Below are positions 22,861-31,446 of a stretch of DNA of 35,535 nucleotides, in pieces. Each line of letters begins with the position of its first letter. The first letter of the stretch is position 1. The position numbers and the translations under genes were made by a program. The notes below the pieces were generated by a model, which saw only the letters and a list, made by a program, of their open reading frames with translations, had not been told where the DNA came from and searched no databases. The stretch is taken from positions 1-35,535 of the forward strand of contig JALWRH010000066.1 of the NCBI GenBank assembly GCA_026994195.1, written 5' to 3'. The stretch is from Sedimenticola sp. (lineage in GTDB: Bacteria; Pseudomonadota; Gammaproteobacteria; Chromatiales; Chromatiaceae).

Positions 22861-23924
22861 GTCCCCGTCCTTTCATATTCCTGCTTCTGCTCACCGCCTT
22901 CGGCCTGGGAGGCTGTGACAAAAACGAGCCGGTACACAACAGCCGCTTTCTCGCCTTTGGCACCCTCACAGATGTGAGTATCGTTGGCGTGCCCCGGAAA
23001 AAAGCCATAGCCGCCGTGGAATCCCTGGAACAGGATTTCACCATCATGAACCATGCGTGGCATGCCTGGGCCCCCGGCCCCCTGACACGCACCAACAAAC
23101 TACTCTCGGAGGGAAAACGTTTCGCGGTGCCCCCTTCCGTACTGGTGCTGATGCAGAAATCTGCAGAGCTGGCCCGGAAAAGCGACAACCTGTTCAATCC
23201 CGCCATCGGCCGCCTGATTCGCCTGTGGGGATTTCAACGGGACAGCCTGGAGCCCTGGCAGCCGCCTGACAAGCAGGCCGTGCGCGAACTGGTGGAAGCC
23301 AATCCCACTATGGACGACATCCGTATTGATGGCATCCACGCCCGGTGCAACAATCCCCAGGTCCAGCTGGATTTCGGTGCCATCGGCAAAGGCTATGGAA
23401 TTGACCTGGCCATTGAGCACCTGCAGGAAATGGGCATCAACAACGCCATCGTAAACAGCGGCGGCGACCTGCGCGCCATCGGCTCCCGGGGCGGTCACCC
23501 CTGGCGTATCGCCATTCGCGGCGCCAGCGGTTCCGGCATCCTCGGGTTTCTGTACATTTCCGGGGATGAAAGCGTCTTTACCTCAGGCAACTATGAACGC
23601 AACTACCTGTGGAAGGGCAAGGTCTATCATCACATCATCGACCCCCGCAGTGGTTACCCTGCCCGGGGCACCCGCTCGGTCACGGTGATCCACGACAATG
23701 CCACGGAAGCCGATGCTGCCGCCACCGCTCTGTTCGTTGCCGGGCCAAAAGACTGGTATCGCATAGCCCGGCAGATGGGCATAAAATATGTGTTACTGGT
23801 AGATGAAGACAATATCGTGCATATGAACCCCGCCATGGCCAAAAGGGTGCATTTGATGGACAAGCATCAGATTGTGGACATTTCCCCGCCCCTGAGGGAA
23901 GGCAGCAAGACGGCACCCCAATGA
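22857..23924 (+). CDS. apbE: FAD:protein FMN transferase, lipoprotein
   Basis: ApbE-family enzyme that transfers FMN from FAD to a Thr or Ser of target proteins such as Nqr/Rnf subunits, acting at the outer face of the inner membrane. The 355-residue protein begins with a lipoprotein signal ending LGGC (Cys20). It then has the ApbE motifs HAWHAWAPGPLTRTN, FNPAIGRLIRLWGF, LDFGAIGKGYGIDLA, VNSGGDLRAIG and HHIIDPRSGYPARG, followed by AATALFVAGP. The start is fixed by the four-base ATGA overlap with gshB, and it overlaps the tonB-like gene in the same way. The target protein is not in the window. Confidence 0.94.
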   Translation: MSPRPFIFLLLLTAFGLGGCDKNEPVHNSRFLAFGTLTDVSIVGVPRKKAIAAVESLEQDFTIMNHAWHAWAPGPLTRTNKLLSEGKRFAVPPSVLVLMQKSAELARKSDNLFNPAIGRLIRLWGFQRDSLEPWQPPDKQAVRELVEANPTMDDIRIDGIHARCNNPQVQLDFGAIGKGYGIDLAIEHLQEMGINNAIVNSGGDLRAIGSRGGHPWRIAIRGASGSGILGFLYISGDESVFTSGNYERNYLWKGKVYHHIIDPRSGYPARGTRSVTVIHDNATEADAAATALFVAGPKDWYRIARQMGIKYVLLVDEDNIVHMNPAMAKRVHLMDKHQIVDISPPLREGSKTAPQ

Positions 23925-24802
23925 GCGCCACCTACCACCAGCCCCGCAATGAAGCACTGATCACCATGGCGGTCATTGCCGTGATTCTGCACGCCCTGTT
24001 CATACTGGGCGTGAATTTCCGCATGCCCCAGCCCCAGCCCCAACTCACCCAACCCAGTCTGGACGTCATCCTGGTGCCGCCCAAAAAACAACAACCTAAA
24101 CCCAAGGAGGCGGACTTTCTCTCTCTACAGAATACTGAAGGCAGCACGGACAGGAAGGGACGATCCAGGCCAAATGCCGAGCCAACGCTGCCTGCCCTGA
24201 AGAAAAGCACCAAAGCCGCTGAAGAACACATACGCAGCGGTGTAAAGACCCCCCAGGCGCAAAAACAACCGAAAGTGGTAACCACCCGCAGCACCGTCAG
24301 GCACAAGGTGAAACCGGTGCGCAAAGCTCCGGTAAAGGCCCGGCAGAAACCCGATATGACCCAGCTGTTGTCCAGCACCCGCCAGGAAATCGCCCGGCTG
24401 ACGGCAGAACTGGACCGCAACAGCCAGTATGCTTCCCAACGTCCCCGCCACAAAGCCATCAATGCCAGCACCAAGGAATACCGTTATGCCGCCTATCTGG
24501 ATGCCTGGCGCAAGAAAGTGGAGCGCGTCGGCAATCTCAACTATCCGGATGAAGCCAAGCGCAGGAAACTCTATGGCGACCTGCTGCTGCATGTGGCTTT
24601 GCGTGCGGATGGATCTGTACAGCAGATCCGTGTGGTGCGTTCCTCCGGTTACAAGCTGCTCGATGATGCCGCTGTGCGCATCGTCAGACTGGCATCACCT
24701 TTTGCGCCTTTCCCCGAGGAGATCCGCAAGGAGATCGATATTCTCGATATCACCCGCACCTGGCAGTTTATGAGCAACAACAGGCTGTTTTCCGGAAAAT
24801 AG
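23921..24802 (+). CDS. TonB-family energy-transducing protein
   Basis: A 293-residue protein with the TonB layout. A short cytoplasmic N-terminus precedes one membrane helix at about 13-32 (ALITMAVIAVILHALFILG). Next is a Pro/Lys/Gln-rich periplasmic spacer (PQPQPQ, PPKKQQPKPK, then basic repeats to about residue 145). A short helical section and a C-terminal TonB domain from about 195 follow, including LNYPDEAKRRKLYGDLLLHVALRADGSVQQIRVVRSSGYKLLDDAAVRIV. It would couple the proton-motive force to outer-membrane transport. Position next to gshB corresponds to tonB3 of Pseudomonas. exbB and exbD are not in the window. Confidence 0.88.
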   Translation: MSATYHQPRNEALITMAVIAVILHALFILGVNFRMPQPQPQLTQPSLDVILVPPKKQQPKPKEADFLSLQNTEGSTDRKGRSRPNAEPTLPALKKSTKAAEEHIRSGVKTPQAQKQPKVVTTRSTVRHKVKPVRKAPVKARQKPDMTQLLSSTRQEIARLTAELDRNSQYASQRPRHKAINASTKEYRYAAYLDAWRKKVERVGNLNYPDEAKRRKLYGDLLLHVALRADGSVQQIRVVRSSGYKLLDDAAVRIVRLASPFAPFPEEIRKEIDILDITRTWQFMSNNRLFSGK

Positions 24803-24977: not shown

Positions 24978-26072
24978 TCAGTCACGCCGCCTGCTTCTTA
25001 CCCAGGCTACACCCAGAAGGGCAATTACAATAGCAAGAAAGACCAGACCCCAAAATGACAGGGCGGGGATAGGTTTTGCCGCATTGCCCGCTACATCGTT
25101 GTCCGCAATGACGATGGTCGCGGTGGTGGACGTACCCAACTGGTAGCCGCTGCCCGCAGACAGGGTCAGGATGATGCTCTCATCCAGCTCCACCAGGGCA
25201 TCGTCGATGGGGATTATGGTGATGTCGGCACTGGTGGCGCCTGTCGGGATGGTGACCGTTCCGGACAGGGCGGCATAGTCAGAACCGGGAGTGGCGCTGC
25301 CACTGACTGTATAGGAAACGACAAGGCCCGGCACTTCCCCCCCGGTGGTATGGGCCTCCCCACCACTACCAAGGCTCACTCTGAACACGCCAACATCCGC
25401 TCCAGCTTCCGCCGCGCTGGCATCAATGGCCACCAAGTTGACAACTGGCAGGGTTTGGGTCTGAAGGGTGTAGGACCAGTTATCGATTCCGCTGGTGGTG
25501 TTGAAGCTGGTGGTATTGCTGCTGTTGGTATTGCTTCGAACGAAACCGAAGCTGATCGCGCCGCCCGAGACTGAAAAGTCCGGATGGCTGCCGCCAGCCC
25601 CGGAAAAGTCCATTTGGGTCAACCCCGTCAAATTCACCGACTGCCAACTCAAGCCATTGAAGGTCAGATCCGGGCCGATATACCATACGCCGCCCTGGCG
25701 CAAGGCCGGCTTCGCGCCAATGGCGGCTCCGGTAAAGGGCGGATTGAATTCCTTGTGATCTTCCGTGTAGTCAAGGGTGGCGATAGCGCCCTGCGCCAAA
25801 GGATCATAAGAGGTACCCAGAAACTCATGCACCACGACAATATTGCTGTTGGGCGGCAAGCTGTGGATCATGGCCCGGTAGGCACCGGGATTACCGCCGC
25901 TGCCGGACTGGGACACCGACTGGCTGGCACCTCCCGTGGTTTTTGTGACGATAGGCGTCCAGTCGGCGGAGGCGAACTCAGAATCCGCAATGATAACTGG
26001 CTGGGCGATGACAGCGCTGCTCAACCACAACAGCGTCATGAAAAAAACACTTCTTACAAATGATGGTTGCAT
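24978..26072 (-). CDS. Exported Calx-beta domain protein with IPTL-CTERM sorting signal
   Basis: A 364-residue surface or exported protein. ATG at 26072 has AAGGAG six bases upstream; a longer frame to 26129 lacks this. The signal peptide is MQPSFVRSVFFMTLLWLSSAVIA. Residues about 25-200 form an unrecognised beta-rich part (laminin-G-like at most). A Calx-beta-type domain follows at about 208-327, with the SYTVSGSATPGSDYAALSGTVTIP core and a closing VIADND. The C-terminus has IPALSFWGL (335-343), a hydrophobic helix and SRRRD. This is an IPTLxxWG-type tail, known in the IPTL-CTERM/exosortase H (XrtH) system, and suggests cleavage and surface sorting. No exosortase is in the window. It lies 198 bases downstream of the SLH-like gene on the same strand. 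Confidence 0.85.
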   Translation of the reverse strand: MQPSFVRSVFFMTLLWLSSAVIAQPVIIADSEFASADWTPIVTKTTGGASQSVSQSGSGGNPGAYRAMIHSLPPNSNIVVVHEFLGTSYDPLAQGAIATLDYTEDHKEFNPPFTGAAIGAKPALRQGGVWYIGPDLTFNGLSWQSVNLTGLTQMDFSGAGGSHPDFSVSGGAISFGFVRSNTNSSNTTSFNTTSGIDNWSYTLQTQTLPVVNLVAIDASAAEAGADVGVFRVSLGSGGEAHTTGGEVPGLVVSYTVSGSATPGSDYAALSGTVTIPTGATSADITIIPIDDALVELDESIILTLSAGSGYQLGTSTTATIVIADNDVAGNAAKPIPALSFWGLVFLAIVIALLGVAWVRSRRRD

Positions 26073-26137
26073 TGGTTTCTCCTTGGAGTCATAACTTTTA
26101 CAAATGGGTGTCTTTTGATTACTACCCAAAATAAGTT

Positions 26138-26226
26138 ACCCCCTCTCCCTTGAGGGAAAGGGCCGGGGAGAGGGTGAAAATCAAGGAATTACCTCCTTTC
26201 CCAAACCCTCTCCCCAATGGGGGTCT
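26138..26226. repeat. REP-like CCCTCTCCC palindromes (two units)
   Basis: Two GC-rich palindromic units lie in the 198-base gap. At 26138-26177 CCCTCTCCC faces GGGGAGAGGG across a short inner repeat, and at about 26200-26226 CCCTCTCCCC is followed by a GGGGG arm. They resemble the common proteobacterial CCCTCTCCC/GGGAGAGGG extragenic repeats. A related unit lies at 28691-28726, so the two sites bracket the SLH-like gene. Confidence 0.65.
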
Positions 26227-26270
26227 GTTTCGGCAGCCTTCTGGACGGGAGAAGGATGCTGTAGTGGGGA

Positions 26271-28502
26271 TCAACGCTCAGCCACCATCAACCCGGCTGA
26301 CTGTTGATGGACCGCCACTTGTTGTAAACGCTGCATCAGGTCGGCCATCAGCTGTTGCTGATCCTGCAAGCGTTGCTCCAAGCGGGCGATCTGCTGTTGC
26401 TGCTGGGCTAGCAGATCCCGGGGAGGCAAGCCGACCAGGGCGCGCACCTTGCCATGCTGGTCGCGACTCAAAGCCCGGCCGATGATGTAGCGGTAGTCCG
26501 CTGCCTTGAGGTTTTCCGGGCTGACCGCGCGGGCCTTGCCGTCATTGGCGCCACTGGCCAGCAGCCAGTCACCGGCGGCCGCGCTACCCGTGACATTGAC
26601 AGGCACCTGCCCAGTGAAGGCCGCCAGGGCCTTGCCCTTGTCGCCGTTCATGTCGCTGTTGCCCGTAACCACGGGGGCGGTGCTAATGACGAACAGGCGC
26701 TCGGCATCAGTGGTGTCCCGCCACAGTTTTCCCTGGCGCAGGGCAACCACTTCACCAGCCTGCAGATCCGGCAGTTCAGTAGGCAGGTATTCGGCAAAAT
26801 CTGCTCCGCCGCTGCGGTAGTTGACCCCTCCCGCGCCATCGCCATCAATGGCGCCGACAGCCGTGGCGCCACCCGCGCCATCCGATCCGAAAAACACAAT
26901 GAAATCGTTCAATGTGCCTGGATCCTGTGTGTTGAGCACCAGATGCAGAGCATCGCTGTGGGAATCCGTACTGGTGTTCTGTATACGTGCCACCGCTGAG
27001 GTATTGTGGTTGTCAACCACATGTAACTGATACGCTGGCGCATTGGTGCCTATGCCCACGCCACCGCTGGCGCGGATCAGGAACTGGTCAGGGCCGGTGG
27101 ATGTAAAATCTACGTTGGTGCTGTCGGCCCAGATAAAAGTGCCTTCATCGCCATCACTATCACTTCCACCCACCTGGTCTGCCGTGCGAACCTTGGCTCG
27201 GTGACCTGCGGCAAAACTGTACTTGCCTCCCGCAACATTGTTGTAGCCACCGGGAATCATCGAGTTGGTTCCAGAAGCGGTATTGAATGCCCCGCCACTA
27301 ACCGTGGCTCTGTTGCCGCTGGCAGTATTGTGGTAACCACCCCCAACCGTCGCGTAAAACTGGGTGCCGGCATTTCCATTTCCACCCCCGATGGTGGTGC
27401 CGTTGGCGCTGGCGGTATTGTGGTAACCACCACCCACCGTGCTACTCCCTGCGCTGGCATAATTTCCATTGCCGCCGGAAACCGTTGAATAATCCCCCGT
27501 GGCCTCATTGACACATGCCTGGGTGCCATCACCACAGGTGGTAATTGATGGATCACCCCCACCCCCGGCAACAGTTGCACCAGGCGCCGAAGTGACATTG
27601 AACGACGCGCCCGCCTGAATTTCCGGGGCATGAATGCCCGCATTGGTATACGTATTGTCTTTGACAGTGATTGCGGTTTTATTGTTGACCTTCACCGTGA
27701 ACGGCTGATCGTTCAATGTGCCAATGAAGTTACTGCTGTTGGCCGTATTACCCCCCAACTCCCAGGCCGGAGGCGCAATGGTGTCATCATCAATCTCGCA
27801 GACAACTGCGCCGGTGGATGAGATGGAGCGAATGGCCTGTCCCTGGGGACAAACACCCAATACCCGACGCTGCACCATTGCGGTATCCACGCTCAGGGTA
27901 ACGTCCCCCGAGACACCGCCGCCACTGAGCCCGGTGCCAGCATTGACGGCGGTGATATCGCCACCGCCTCCACCCGTCCCTGTATCATCCGCCGCGCAGG
28001 CCCAGGCGCTGCCATTCCACTTGGCCACCTCACCGCTGCTGCAGCTCAGTCCCGCCAAGGTGTCGGCATCACCATCGAGCAGGTCGGCGGGAACATTCAT
28101 GAAATTGGACCAGTCAAGGTAATGACTGCTGTCTTGGCCGTCCAGCAGGTCGGCATCCAGGCCGGAACCTGCGCCATCGAGCTGGCTGTACAGGGTCTCT
28201 TCCAGGCCCCTGACCAGGAACACTGCCATCTGCGCCCGGGTGACCAAATCCTCGGGGCAGTAACTGTTGCCACCGCAGCCCTGGGTGATATTCAGATTGG
28301 CGAACTCCTCGATGAAACCGCAGGCCCAGTAAGTATCGGGCACATCGTCGAACAGCGTCCCCGTACAGACATAGGTTGCCGCCTCTACAAAGGCTTCATA
28401 GCTCCCTGGTGCCGGCGCCTCCGCCAGAGCATCGCCACCCGTCCAGATTCCTGCCAGCAGCAGGGCCAGCAGGCGTTTGTTGAACATAGCTTTGTTTTTC
28501 AT
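26271..28502 (-). CDS. Large exported protein: SLH-like module, YadA-like head repeats, C-terminal coiled coil
   Basis: A 743-residue exported protein I cannot name. ATG at 28502 has GGAGG eight bases upstream; the frame from TTG 28517 is less likely. After a signal peptide (cleavage probably near ALA, residue 27) an S-layer-homology-like segment spans about 49-100 (LFDDVPDTYWACGFIEEFANL, then VTRAQMAVFLVRGL). A Gly/Asp-rich region with LDGQDSSHYLDW follows. Six 15-residue repeats of SxTVGGGYHNTASGN type, like YadA/trimeric-adhesin heads, occupy 338-427. A tail-fibre-like GGVGIGTNAPAYQLHV lies at about 480-495, a further domain starts at ADFAEYLP (about 567), and a Gln-rich coiled coil is at 697-735. 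No beta-barrel anchor or Peptidase_S74 motif is clear. A trimeric fibre is plausible. The CadC-like regulator gene is immediately upstream. Confidence 0.85.
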   Translation of the reverse strand: MKNKAMFNKRLLALLLAGIWTGGDALAEAPAPGSYEAFVEAATYVCTGTLFDDVPDTYWACGFIEEFANLNITQGCGGNSYCPEDLVTRAQMAVFLVRGLEETLYSQLDGAGSGLDADLLDGQDSSHYLDWSNFMNVPADLLDGDADTLAGLSCSSGEVAKWNGSAWACAADDTGTGGGGGDITAVNAGTGLSGGGVSGDVTLSVDTAMVQRRVLGVCPQGQAIRSISSTGAVVCEIDDDTIAPPAWELGGNTANSSNFIGTLNDQPFTVKVNNKTAITVKDNTYTNAGIHAPEIQAGASFNVTSAPGATVAGGGGDPSITTCGDGTQACVNEATGDYSTVSGGNGNYASAGSSTVGGGYHNTASANGTTIGGGNGNAGTQFYATVGGGYHNTASGNRATVSGGAFNTASGTNSMIPGGYNNVAGGKYSFAAGHRAKVRTADQVGGSDSDGDEGTFIWADSTNVDFTSTGPDQFLIRASGGVGIGTNAPAYQLHVVDNHNTSAVARIQNTSTDSHSDALHLVLNTQDPGTLNDFIVFFGSDGAGGATAVGAIDGDGAGGVNYRSGGADFAEYLPTELPDLQAGEVVALRQGKLWRDTTDAERLFVISTAPVVTGNSDMNGDKGKALAAFTGQVPVNVTGSAAAGDWLLASGANDGKARAVSPENLKAADYRYIIGRALSRDQHGKVRALVGLPPRDLLAQQQQQIARLEQRLQDQQQLMADLMQRLQQVAVHQQSAGLMVAER
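27222..27491 (-). repeat. Six 45-bp coding repeats (15-residue YadA-like units)
   Basis: Six consecutive 15-codon units encode S-x-T-V-x-G-G-x-x-N-x-A-S-x-x type sequence at residues 338-427, with a partial seventh unit (YSFAAGHRAKV). Copies two and four share GGGYHNTAS. The regular period and Gly-Asn pattern suit a left-handed beta-roll head as in trimeric autotransporter adhesins. Confidence 0.8.
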
Positions 28503-28600
28503 TATTACATCCTCCAAATGGTGAAGTCAGGACAACAGCCAAGGGCTGTGCTTGGAGCATGGCCAAACGGCAACCTGGCGGCTTGATTTACCTGGAGGAA

Positions 28601-28650
28601 ATTGTGAAGAGATTGTGAACTCTTTATAAATCAGCAGCTTGAATCACAAT
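28601..28650 (-). promoter_or_regulatory. Candidate operator and promoter of the SLH-like gene
   Basis: The octamer ATTGTGAA occurs twice in direct orientation 11 bases apart (28601-28608, 28612-28619), one helical turn. A near-copy in the opposite orientation, ATCACAAT, lies at 28643-28650. On the minus strand TTGATT (28653-28648) and TATAAA (28628-28623) could be -35 and -10, but the 19-base spacer is long. ToxR/CadC-type regulators often use short direct repeats at helical spacing, so the neighbouring regulator is a candidate binder. Confidence 0.45.
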
Positions 28651-28690
28651 CAAATAAGAGAACAGGCGAAAGGCTACGCCAACAGACTCA

Positions 28691-28726
28691 CTCTTTCCCC
28701 CGGGGGAGAGGGTTGGGGTGAGGGGG
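28691..28726. repeat. REP-like CCCTCTCCC-type palindrome
   Basis: CTCTTTCCCC is followed by CGGGGGAGAG and then GGTTGGGGTGAGGGGG, in the 240-base gap between the CadC-like gene and the SLH-like gene. It belongs to the same repeat type as the units at 26138-26226. The remainder of the gap holds the candidate promoter and operator. Confidence 0.65.
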
Positions 28727-28742
28727 AAATAGGCTAGGTTAT

Positions 28743-30761
28743 TCAGAAAATGATTTCACGCCACTTCTGATTTGAAAGCGCGTTTTCATAGGCCTGCAGA
28801 TATTTCTCATGGGTGGCCGCCCAGAGGCTGCCGGCCTTTTCTTTCACGGCCCTGGCAATATCCACGGCATCCGCGAAACGCTTTTCCTCATAGGCAAGAT
28901 GGGCGGGCAAGAGCGCGTAGGTGGGGTCGGGGGAGGCAAACTCACTTTCGGTTTGCAGGTATTTCCTGGCCTGGTCAGGCAGATGCAGATTGAGGTAGGC
29001 CCGCGCCAACAGATTGGCTGCCATGTGGCCGGCATACTTCAACCCCTGCCGTTCGAAATCAGGAAGCATTTTGCTGATTTCGTTTACGGCGACCTCATAC
29101 TTCCCTTCCATGATATGAATATCGGCCAGTTCAACCTTTACCAGGGCAGCCCCTTCGGTACCTCCAAGTTTTTCAAAGGCTGCCTGCAAATCCGTCAACA
29201 TGCTGACAGCACGACCGAGCTCCCCTTTCGATTTCAGGATAACAGCCTGTTGAAATTTGGTCATGGCCAGGTATTGCCGGTTGCCCAGGCGCAGAAACTG
29301 CAATTCGGCGTCCTTGTAGTATTTTTCCGCTTGGGTGTAATCATTGACCGTCATGTGGATATTGCCGATATTGAACGACACCATGCCAATCCCGGGACGG
29401 TATCCGGCCCGCCGGTACAATTCCATGGCCTTCAGCAAGTATTCCAGGGCTCTGTCCACATCCCCAGCAGCCTGGTAACTGGTGCCGATATTCATGGTTT
29501 CCATAGCCTGATCTACGACATTCCCCGCTTCCTCTGCCATCTTCAACAGGCGTCGGGAGGTTTCCCGTGACAAACCAAGCTCCCCCTTGGTGTACTGGAT
29601 ATTGGACACCACCCGCAGGGCTTGGTAGCGGACATCCGGCGGCAAATCATCCCGCGCCAGCAGGCCGTCCGTGATTTTCAGCGCCTCATCCAGCTTACGC
29701 ATGCGATAGCGGGCATCCGCCAGCTTTACCCGGGCCCAGACGAATTCCGGCTCCTTTTTCAGGGCAAGTTCGAGGAACTGAACCGCGGAGACATATTGGC
29801 CGTTGAACAGTTCCTGGGTGCCCAGGGCATAGGCCTGGTTGGCGGCTTCATCGGTGGAATAGGTATCCCGTACGCTGACCAGCCAGGGCTGCGCGGGGTC
29901 CACCAGCCGGACAACACTGCCGGCAAGCGCTGACCCGGCTTCGATGACGGTATTCCCATTAACCGTCTTGCGCTTGGCAACCCCTCTGGAACTGACCACC
30001 TGGTAGGAGATTTGAGGATGCGGATCGGTGCGCTCCAGGCGGGCGGAAAGCAGTATCTGGCATCCCAGATCCCCACAGAGAGACTCAAATACCTTCAGCA
30101 TTTCCAGGGGTGTAGAGGGCGTTTCATCCAGGGCCATGTTGTCCAGATAGCTGATGACTTTTTTTGTTTCCACGGTGTTGATACCGGCTGACTCCCCCAG
30201 CAGCTGCCGAACCATGTCCATGAGCCCCAGGTTTATCCAGGCGTAGGTTTCATCCCCGCTCCCGTTCTCGAAAGGCAGCACGGCAATGTTGTAAGGATAA
30301 TCCCCAAGGTCCAGAGATGGTGGTTTTTCGGGCCGGGTGAACAAGTAGGCGGCCAGGGCGGTCGCCAGCATCAGTCCCAGGACGGCCCATGGCCAGCGTC
30401 TGGGCATTTCTGCCATTTTCTCCCGGGGTTCCGCAGCAGGACTGTCTTCAGCAAGCAGCTCGGGCTGAACCAGAAAACGCACGCCCACGCCATGTATGGT
30501 CTTGATGTAGGTGGGATGCCTGCTGTCATCGCCCAGGAGCTGGCGGGTGCGGCGAATCAGCTGGGACAAGGCCCAGTCACTGATTTCCTGCCGGGGCCAG
30601 AGGGTTTCCAGCAGTTCCCGCCGGGTCAGGGTTTCCGGATAGCGCTCCAGCAGCAGCAGGATGAACTGGAACACCCTGTTCTCCACCTCCAGCAGTTCTC
30701 CATCCCGGTAGAAAAGCGTTTTGTCCGGGTTCAACCGGAATTCATTGAATCGGTAGATCAT
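28743..30761 (-). CDS. ToxR/CadC-type membrane transcription regulator with TPR domain
   Basis: A 672-residue one-component regulator. Residues 1-100 form an OmpR-like winged helix (FRLNPDKTLFYRDGELLEV, RRELLETLWPRQEISDWALSQLIRRTRQLL, IKTIHGVGVRFL). One membrane helix at about 122-142 (PWAVLGLMLATALAAYLFT) leads to the periplasmic part. This begins with a TolB/FlgO-like fold (YNIAVLPFENGSGD) and continues with TPR-type helical repeats from about 310 to the end. The layout is that of CadC-like sensors that read an extracytoplasmic signal and activate nearby genes. ATG at 30761 has AAGGGG seven bases upstream. It is followed after 240 bases by the SLH-like gene on the same strand, the likely target. 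Confidence 0.88.
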   Translation of the reverse strand: MIYRFNEFRLNPDKTLFYRDGELLEVENRVFQFILLLLERYPETLTRRELLETLWPRQEISDWALSQLIRRTRQLLGDDSRHPTYIKTIHGVGVRFLVQPELLAEDSPAAEPREKMAEMPRRWPWAVLGLMLATALAAYLFTRPEKPPSLDLGDYPYNIAVLPFENGSGDETYAWINLGLMDMVRQLLGESAGINTVETKKVISYLDNMALDETPSTPLEMLKVFESLCGDLGCQILLSARLERTDPHPQISYQVVSSRGVAKRKTVNGNTVIEAGSALAGSVVRLVDPAQPWLVSVRDTYSTDEAANQAYALGTQELFNGQYVSAVQFLELALKKEPEFVWARVKLADARYRMRKLDEALKITDGLLARDDLPPDVRYQALRVVSNIQYTKGELGLSRETSRRLLKMAEEAGNVVDQAMETMNIGTSYQAAGDVDRALEYLLKAMELYRRAGYRPGIGMVSFNIGNIHMTVNDYTQAEKYYKDAELQFLRLGNRQYLAMTKFQQAVILKSKGELGRAVSMLTDLQAAFEKLGGTEGAALVKVELADIHIMEGKYEVAVNEISKMLPDFERQGLKYAGHMAANLLARAYLNLHLPDQARKYLQTESEFASPDPTYALLPAHLAYEEKRFADAVDIARAVKEKAGSLWAATHEKYLQAYENALSNQKWREIIF

Positions 30762-30864: not shown

Positions 30865-30873
30865 TGGTATAAT
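30865..30873 (+). promoter_or_regulatory. Extended -10 promoter of yqgE
   Basis: TGGTATAAT is a perfect extended -10 (TGn plus TATAAT). No -35 is recognisable, as is usual for such promoters. The -10 ends only nine bases before the yqgE ATG, so transcription would begin within about three bases of the start codon or on it. Confidence 0.65.
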
Positions 30874-30882
30874 TACCTTCCC

Positions 30883-31446
30883 ATGAGCGAATCTTCCTCA
30901 CTGACCGATCATTTCCTGATCGCCCTGCCGATTCTGCGGGACCCCAACTTTTCCCGCACTGTCACTTATATCTGCGAGCATAACAAGGACGGCGCCATGG
31001 GCATCATCATCAACCGCCCTTGCGATCTTCAGCTCATGGACATCCTGCACCACATGGACATACAGGAAACCCCAGCCACCCCCCGGGAGTTCCCCGTGCA
31101 TATCGGCGGCCCGGTGCAGGAAGACCGGGGTTTCCTGCTCCATTCCCCGCCAAAGCGCTGGGATTCCACCCTGGTGATCAGTGATGATATGGCCGTGACC
31201 ACCTCCCGCGATCTGCTTCAGGCTCTGGCCCGGGGAGAAGGACCGGAAGAAGTGTTCATCGCCCTGGGTTACGCCGGTTGGGGTCCAGGACAGCTGGAGC
31301 AGGAACTACAACAGGACAGCTGGCTGTTCAGCCCCGCTTCCCGGGAGATCATTTTCCACACACCTGTGGAAAAGCGCTGGGAGGCTGCCGCGACTCTGGC
31401 AGGTGTGGACCTGAACCTGATCAGCAACACCGGTGGCCATGCCTGA
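30883..31446 (+). CDS. yqgE: YqgE/AlgH family protein
   Basis: A 187-residue member of the YqgE/AlgH family, whose biochemical role is unclear (linked to alginate regulation in Pseudomonas). It shows the family N-terminus DHFLIALPILRDPNFSRTVTYICEHNKDGAMGIIINRP, then HIGGPVQEDRGFLLHS and ALGYAGWGPGQLEQEL, and FHTPVEKRWEAA near the end. ATG at 30883 has no ribosome binding site (TACCTTCCC precedes it) and lies nine bases after a TATAAT. It starts the yqgE-ruvX-pyrR-pyrB-pyrC'-pyrK run, whose order matches Pseudomonas; its 3' end overlaps ruvX. Confidence 0.95.
   Translation: MSESSSLTDHFLIALPILRDPNFSRTVTYICEHNKDGAMGIIINRPCDLQLMDILHHMDIQETPATPREFPVHIGGPVQEDRGFLLHSPPKRWDSTLVISDDMAVTTSRDLLQALARGEGPEEVFIALGYAGWGPGQLEQELQQDSWLFSPASREIIFHTPVEKRWEAAATLAGVDLNLISNTGGHA

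Follow-up and report, generated by a model that had tools for sequence, protein, structure and literature searches.

In Escherichia coli, cadBA is the adjacent target of the transmembrane regulator CadC. The accessible part of one study describes CadC as binding head-to-head and not tandem sites (PMC5430869), and the Streptomyces PHO box consists, according to an excerpt of another report, of direct repeats of 11 bp whose core is GTTCACC (PMC9019756). The words TPR and tetratricopeptide are absent from the main text of a survey published in 2023 on transmembrane regulators (PMC10269533; word search), and the targets and signals of TPR-bearing ToxR-like regulators are little described in the literature that we found. 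Among surface proteins, Veillonella trimeric autotransporters carry an SLH domain, according to the portion available (PMC7549365), and the S-layer protein of Methylomirabilis lanthanidiphila carries IPTL-CTERM, as stated in an extract of its description (PMC8671808). Our searches found no literature joining exosortase, S-layer homology and Gammaproteobacteria, and none joining direct repeats, OmpR family, 11 bp and winged.

Here we describe a locus of Sedimenticola sp. that may connect a membrane switch of the one-component type with an SLH/UspA1-type chimera that lacks a YadA anchor. Its 19-bp candidate operator is unique in the genome and adjoins the regulator gene, which makes both the target and the mechanism directly testable.

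Gene content of the block

The window, the whole stretch of 35,535 nucleotides that was analysed, belongs to a genome of 3.0 Mb (G000). Its block 24978-30761 extends on the minus strand from the stop of the IPTL-CTERM protein gene (IPTL) to the start of the regulator gene (REG), and includes the gene of a fibre-like protein (SLH) as the third member (Table 1). The first-pass annotation had described three opposite-strand surface and regulator genes in this interval; the coordinates are exact and the domain content is matched by Pfam. All three genes have dN/dS values of 0.13-0.20, indicating purifying selection, and they are considered real genes for this reason.

Table 1. Positions of the genes, domains and sites in the window
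Feature	Positions	Strand	Basis or remark
IPTL-CTERM protein, 364 aa from ATG (383 from upstream TTG, 26129)	24978..26072	-	ORF, Pfam
IPTL-CTERM motif (KPIPALSFWG + TM + RSRRR)	24987..25073	-	Pfam
Calx-beta domain, residues 271-345 of 383	25095..25319	-	Pfam
Palindromic repeats CCCTCTCCC/GGGAGAGGG in the SLH-IPTL gap, with one terminator-like stem	26139..26230		
Fibre-like protein, 743 aa from ATG (748 from TTG at 28517)	26271..28502	-	ORF, model, profile matches
Predicted C-terminal helix, coiled-coil-like, residues 694-739	26286..26423	-	Model of low overall confidence; sequence
GIGTNAP...LHV segment, residues 455-529	26916..27140	-	Weak Bdellovibrio MAT fibre similarity, E 0.006-0.009
UspA1/YadA-like beta-roll head, residues 332-464	27111..27509	-	PDB 3pr7 match
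Single SLH domain, Cys-containing, residues 56-98 of 748	28224..28352	-	Pfam
Candidate operator TTCACAATCTCTTCACAAT	28601..28619	-	99-117 bp upstream of fibre ATG
CadC/ToxR-type transmembrane regulator, 672 aa	28743..30761	-	Pfam, predicted model, structure matches
TPR superhelix, residues 305-671	28749..29849	-	Pfam TPR families; model
Hydrophobic, presumed transmembrane segment, about residues 122-141	30339..30398	-	Sequence; helix 127-142 in model
Winged-helix DNA-binding domain, residues 1-103	30453..30761	-	Trans_reg_C; model; CadC 5ju7 E 6.9e-23
TATAAT hexamer before yqgE	30868..30873	+	TATAAT or TACAAT in relatives printed, with and without block

In Pfam, REG scores 47 bits against Trans_reg_C and also matches several TPR families, in agreement with its earlier description as a sensor-type transmembrane CadC-type regulator with TPRs. 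The family profile of its winged helix matches the ToxR and PhoB structures in addition to that of CadC, and the sequence and model place an alpha/beta part after the hydrophobic stretch, followed by the TPR region. The predicted layout is that of the CadC/ToxR type, with an OmpR-type winged helix, a single presumed transmembrane segment and a C-terminal sensor domain, and the TPR superhelix would be periplasmic if the CadC topology holds.

The fibre-like protein contains one copy of the SLH domain (25 bits, cut-off 20.8), through which it may bind cell-wall polymer. Its head resembles that of UspA1 (E 3.9e-20), which bears out the YadA-like impression of the first pass. Of the two hallmarks of type Vc trimeric autotransporter adhesins, the protein has the YadA-like head and lacks the C-terminal YadA anchor, as a Pfam scan that admitted matches to E 1 found no anchor family. 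The structure predicted for the 743-residue protein as a monomer was too poor to assign a fold (pLDDT 43.2), and no Foldseek match reached E 0.001. The earlier reading as a possible fibre is supported as a possibility, and the protein may trimerise and be located on the cell surface.

IPTL comprises a signal peptide, an undefined N-terminal part, a Calx-beta domain (33.4 bits, over the cut-off) and, at its C terminus, an IPTL-CTERM sorting signal that includes the IPTL motif, a TM segment and a basic end. The signal scores 23.5 bits against PF18203 (cut-off 20.8) and 15.9 bits against TIGR04174, which is under the cut-off of 20.5 for that model. Absence of an exosortase from the genome was considered and rejected: PF09721 gives no match, yet the exosortase H (XrtH) model TIGR04177 finds one on contig C57 (8636-9100) with 184.8 bits against a cut-off of 86. 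The enzyme that the first pass proposed to look for is therefore located, and with the signal and XrtH in the same genome IPTL is probably a sorted protein, as had been suggested.

Distribution and history of the block

The block had been proposed to interrupt a tonB-yqgE neighbourhood, and these genes do adjoin each other directly in 8 of the 13 relatives of the genus used for the gene-order count (G153 stood outside it), with 28-53 bp between the tblastn matches, stop codon counted in. The fetched stretch upstream of yqgE gave no tonB match in three genomes (G126, G149 and G150). The whole block, with the same genes, order and place, recurs in G151 (identity to G000 of 91% for REG, 82% for SLH and 74% for IPTL). 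In G152 it is found at the same place but split over two contigs, one carrying the start of REG (about the first 120 residues) next to yqgE, the other SLH and IPTL continuing to tonB, apbE and gshB, and most of REG may be missing. The idea that the block is unique to its source species was dropped, as the first family sample (146 genomes) simply lacked these two relatives and genus searches found both. The refuting observation named in the first pass, that the three genes never co-occur elsewhere, is half borne out: the trio recurs, but only at the same tonB-yqgE site in two sister genomes. These observations support the block being an accessory insertion when G000 is compared with most genomes of the genus. 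Because a TATAAT or TACAAT hexamer precedes yqgE in the relatives compared, with or without the block, the insert lies upstream of this element.

A clean single gain of the block was rejected since the gene trees conflict. In the gshB, apbE and tonB trees, G000 and the block-less G077 fall together (support 0.91-1.00), whereas the yqgE and ruvX trees lean toward G151/G152 (support 0.50 and 0.83), and dS values do not decide between these histories. The block may have been lost in G077 or transferred by recombination.

A candidate operator upstream of the fibre gene

The gap between REG and SLH contains a tandem 11-bp repeat, TTCACAAT-CTC-TTCACAAT, upstream of the presumed target. The exact pattern TTCACAATNNNTTCACAAT occurs once in G000 and once in G151, each time before the fibre gene; 13 other genus genomes contain no exact copy and a single match with one mismatch (G149), and a reversed-pattern control gave none in 15 genomes. 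The repeat is absent from G152. It falls within the well conserved part of the gap, where 27, 30, 26 and 27 columns per 30 are identical (columns 120-239), as compared to 9-21 per 30 in columns 0-119. The half-site is missing from the 260-bp upstream regions of four paralogues of the fibre family.

Related regulators elsewhere in the genus also adjoin genes of exported proteins, different from the fibre/IPTL pair, and several of these gaps have 11-bp tandem repeats. At eight regulator loci (seven of the genus and one of another family; spacings 6-22, run of at least 7), 11 bp was the uniquely best repeat spacing in four, and at one more locus it shared first place with 22; the shuffled-sequence P for four of eight loci is about 1e-5, with a criterion fixed after seeing the data. 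At two of the eight (C83, and C197 of G152) the 11-bp run never exceeded 4, and runs were only 5 at C41 of G029, orthologous in place to C158, and in the G500 relative. An 11-bp rule for the CadC-TPR regulators of the family was rejected, with runs of at least 8 in 2 of 27 upstream regions of distant regulators and 13-bp runs likewise in 2. Co-variation between operator and winged helix was unsupported overall (Spearman 0.09 over 10 pairs, although one pair does match, p 0.003).

Fibre-family paralogues occur elsewhere singly or as a tandem pair without such a regulator (C62, C91), or with a two-component pair instead (C85). A scan for fibre modules, confined to the best 80 of 417 relatives and possibly lacking records very close to G000, gave 75 loci from named genomes, and block orthologues lay nearby only in the G152 and G151 loci (IPTL in L133 and L134, REG in L134); L196 has a 24% match in the TPR part. 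Inspection with a G146 query revealed a more distant regulator near the fibre module of L137 (G152 C25).

Explanations of the locus

We regard it as somewhat more probable than an even chance that REG controls the adjacent fibre gene through a PhoB-like tandem 11-bp operator, within an accessory insert in which IPTL is inherited alongside. REG would be a one-component, membrane-anchored CadC/ToxR-type regulator acting in cis, the cytoplasmic winged helix of which binds the tandem repeat and, once bound, switches on the gene of an exported, SLH-bearing and UspA1-headed fibre-like protein. The TPR superhelix would read a signal on the opposite membrane face, and the putatively XrtH-sorted Calx-beta protein would be a separate third gene. 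The repeat could also serve another OmpR-family protein instead of REG. Of the "regulated surface module" proposed initially, the REG-fibre pair has gained a candidate cis site, but membership of IPTL in the same regulon is unsupported, as the SLH-IPTL gap has no 11-bp repeat.

The three genes might instead be unrelated accessory genes at a permissive intergenic site, with REG controlling other genes or only itself. The confinement of the trio to one locus, the palindromic repeats in both gaps, the paralogues on C62, C91 and C85 and the other partners of related regulators all fit this idea, but the operator-like repeat, which in two genomes occurs at the fibre promoter and nowhere else, and the exported-protein genes beside regulators at several loci speak against it, and we consider it rather unlikely. 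That each regulator of a genus-wide TPR-CadC family has its own 11-bp operator before a neighbouring gene for an exported fibre or adhesin, with the TPR sensing the product in a private feedback on each surface structure, appears quite improbable.

A single operon or regulon, the joint expression of which would yield REG, the fibre and the XrtH-sorted protein for one surface structure, is quite unlikely in our view. Strand and order are the same wherever the block occurs (whole in G151, on two contigs in G152), and the second G000 regulator (C83) also faces a cohesin-like protein, the C terminus of which is IPTL-like; this protein and IPTL are the two best IPTL matches of the genome. However, the C83 match is below the cut-off (15.9 bits) in a gene cut by the contig end, a third weak match (C122, E 0.82) likewise lies at the end of an ORF, so the IPTL-regulator pairing may be incomplete, and G146 (84% complete) has a regulator with other partners and no XrtH above the cut-off. 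Besides the missing repeat, a terminator-like stem precedes the IPTL gene, although such stems are equally frequent in shuffles. Very unlikely, in our view, is an export monitor, in which the TPR superhelix binds the fibre or its peptide and adjusts fibre synthesis: the TPR model is structurally similar to MalT domain III and the peptide-binding Rap/NprR proteins (Z 18.7-23.1), and partners at other loci look exported, but eukaryotic TPR proteins reach equally high scores in this comparison.

Comparison with known systems

REG is predicted to share the N-terminal winged helix, one TM segment and large C-terminal sensor of CadC and ToxR-like receptors, and its proposed target gene is adjacent, like cadBA for CadC. 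It differs from CadC in its long TPR superhelix and in the nature of the proposed target, the fibre-like protein. A tandem 11-bp repeat is proposed as its operator, in contrast to the Cad1 sites, to which CadC binds in head-to-head arrangement according to the accessible part of PMC5430869. The repeat has 11-bp direct repeats and a TTCAC core in common with the PHO box of PhoB/PhoP-type regulators, as far as the excerpt of PMC9019756 describes it; unlike the PHO box, the candidate operator adjoins the gene of a regulator predicted to be membrane-anchored and one-component.

The nearest case to the SLH/UspA1-type chimera that our literature search found is that of the Veillonella proteins, where a single chain likewise combines SLH with YadA-like material; in the portion available (PMC7549365), their SLH is C-terminal and follows the YadA anchor, whereas here it is N-terminal and no anchor was found. 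The Bdellovibrio MAT fibres, in the available text of PMC10769870, have a similarly chimeric build and a GIGT-AP-LHV motif to which the fibre-like protein shows weak similarity (E 0.006-0.009); the fibre-like protein differs from them in having SLH and no S74 domain match in the Pfam scan. Finally, both components of exosortase H/IPTL-CTERM sorting, the signal and XrtH, are present here, and compared to the M. lanthanidiphila S-layer protein, as presented in the extract of PMC8671808, the carrier is a Calx-beta protein whose gene adjoins a fibre gene.

Position and bounds of the block

The window comes from a 3.0-Mb draft genome (G000), in which the tonB–yqgE interval holds, on the minus strand, the genes of a transmembrane regulator, a fibre-like protein and an IPTL-CTERM protein, in that order. 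The first-pass annotation regarded this block as an insertion, and a comparison of gene order agrees: yqgE was found in all 14 other genus genomes, and in 8 of the 13 whose yqgE regions were fetched (G153 being left out) tonB lies directly beside it (G077, G148, G154, G029, G146, G141, G106 and G147). The block occupies this site completely in G151 and over two contigs in G152, and no tonB match is present in the stretch fetched at yqgE in G126, G149 and G150. The insert is bounded by the tonB stop on one side and, on the other, by the TATAAT/TACAAT hexamer that precedes yqgE in G000 and the nine relatives printed, and its GC (0.52–0.60) is similar to that of the flanking DNA. The gene trees do not agree on a clean single gain: those of the upstream genes group G000 with the block-less G077. 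In G152 only regulator residues ~1–120 were found, at a contig end, and the remainder was not found in its draft genome.

Features of the block and of related loci (L, fetched loci; C, contigs)
Feature	Position	Remark
tonB	23921-24802	one flank
yqgE	30883-31446	other flank
Candidate operator TTCACAAT-CTC-TTCACAAT	28601-28619	regulator-fibre gap; 11-bp spacing
Palindromic repeats	window 26141-26206, 28704; L029 9411-9536, 11560-11712; L031 7854-7866	
Regulator winged helix	residues 1-103	matches CadC, ToxR, PhoB chains
Regulator hydrophobic segment	about residues 122-141	
Regulator TPR superhelix	residues 305-671	AlphaFold model
UspA1-like head, fibre-like protein	residues 332-464	E 3.9e-20
G152 partial regulator	L050, L120	
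G146 small protein	L216:10695-11033	G152 relative, L120:1-222
Second CadC-TPR regulator	L028:12459-15646	G000 C83
Fibre-family gene by putative kinase	L031:3232-7564; L224:3744-8320	G000; G077
Tandem fibre-family genes	L029:7282-11521; L225:4169-8620	G000; G077
PF09721, no XrtH above cut-off	G146 C25, C234; G126 C36; G149 C38; G153 C90	

The regulator and its candidate operator

The AlphaFold model of the regulator (mean pLDDT 82.9) also contains an alpha/beta part, and its TPR part is nearest to MalT domain III, followed by Rap/NprR and several eukaryotic TPR proteins. The single sequence (E 1e-25) finds matches in 3 of 369 sampled class genomes, G000 counted, and a nine-row profile in 36 of 146 sampled family genomes.

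We somewhat favour the reading that the regulator controls the adjacent fibre gene in cis through a putative tandem 11-bp operator. A shorter form of the repeat, with up to two mismatches, gives two overlapping matches in the window, both at this site, against 0.08 expected. Genome-wide, the exact repeat occurs once in G000 and, identically, once in G151; G149 has one single-mismatch site, and 12 other genus genomes contain neither form (control 0). The repeat is absent in G152, whose fibre gene has a different upstream region, and the half-site was not found upstream of four fibre-gene paralogues. The 11-bp spacing recurs with other letters beside related regulators (G146, G152 C25, G147 C158, G029 C13) and was not seen beside those of C83, G152 C197 and G029 C41. 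Under a strict spacing rule, set afterwards, 4 of 8 regulator loci qualify (P about 1e-5 from shuffles); G029 C13 fails because 22 bp ties with 11. Upstream of distant regulators no 11-bp enrichment appears (27 of 28 with readable upstream DNA).

By a crude signal-peptide rule (background 32/168 genes; L219 gave no score), the regulator's neighbouring gene, taken on the repeat or divergent side, is classed as exported in the window, C83, C25, C158, C13 and the G500 relative. In G146 and C41 it is not so classed, and in C41 the second gene along is; C25, found via the fibre module, is not an independent draw. The G146 orthologue (52%) sits at a different place; its neighbours are a gene of the subtilase family, a protein that carries GTGLSGGG and has a signal-like N terminus, and a divergently placed protein of 112 aa. 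A relative of this last protein (44.6% over 74 residues) has its end upstream of the G152 fibre gene. In G146 the small protein has a signal-like start; it ends in VEDDGCD(D/E) and has no Pfam match. Divergent to the second G000 regulator stands a cohesin-like protein whose C terminus is IPTL-like and whose gene is truncated by the contig end.

The fibre-like and IPTL proteins

The SLH-like/YadA-like character proposed initially is borne out by one SLH domain, which follows the signal peptide and precedes an LDG/GTGLSGGG stretch, and by the UspA1-like head. A GIGTNAP-LHV segment weakly resembles Bdellovibrio MAT fibres, and the predicted C-terminal helix looks coiled-coil-like. No YadA anchor was found in the protein. 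The first ~245 residues recur at 50–71% identity in four other G000 genes (C62 twice, C91, C85) with different passengers. Outside Sedimenticola MAGs, fibre-module loci are mostly from Chloroflexi or Anaerolineales and resemble the protein mainly in the SLH part (75 loci kept from named genomes, among the best 80 of 417 relatives).

Another fibre-family gene, in G000 and G077, adjoins a putative sensor kinase and response regulator, named by reading rather than family search. Tandem fibre-family genes, whose flanks differ between the two genomes, carry GGYFKD-type repeats and a shared C-terminal part in G000. Palindromic CCCTCTCCC/GGGAGAGGG repeats cluster next to such genes: 15 of 18 core matches lie within ~300 bp of one in 151,004 bp of G000, stretches partly picked for holding them.

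The third protein combines Calx-beta with an IPTL-CTERM signal scoring under the TIGR04174 cut-off. Exosortase H (XrtH), which the first-pass annotation proposed to locate, passes its cut-off in G000 and 7 of 14 relatives; four genus members lacking such a match have a general PF09721 exosortase instead. Eight of the 15 genus genomes have IPTL matches that pass the cut-off, borne by differing proteins at the loci read, and a third weak match in G000 (C122) slightly weakens the regulator–IPTL pattern.

Of the regulated surface module suggested at first, the regulator–fibre pair is marked well enough for testing, and the sorted IPTL protein is only a possible regulon member. The combination was not found described, and the parts of the block are all of known kinds.
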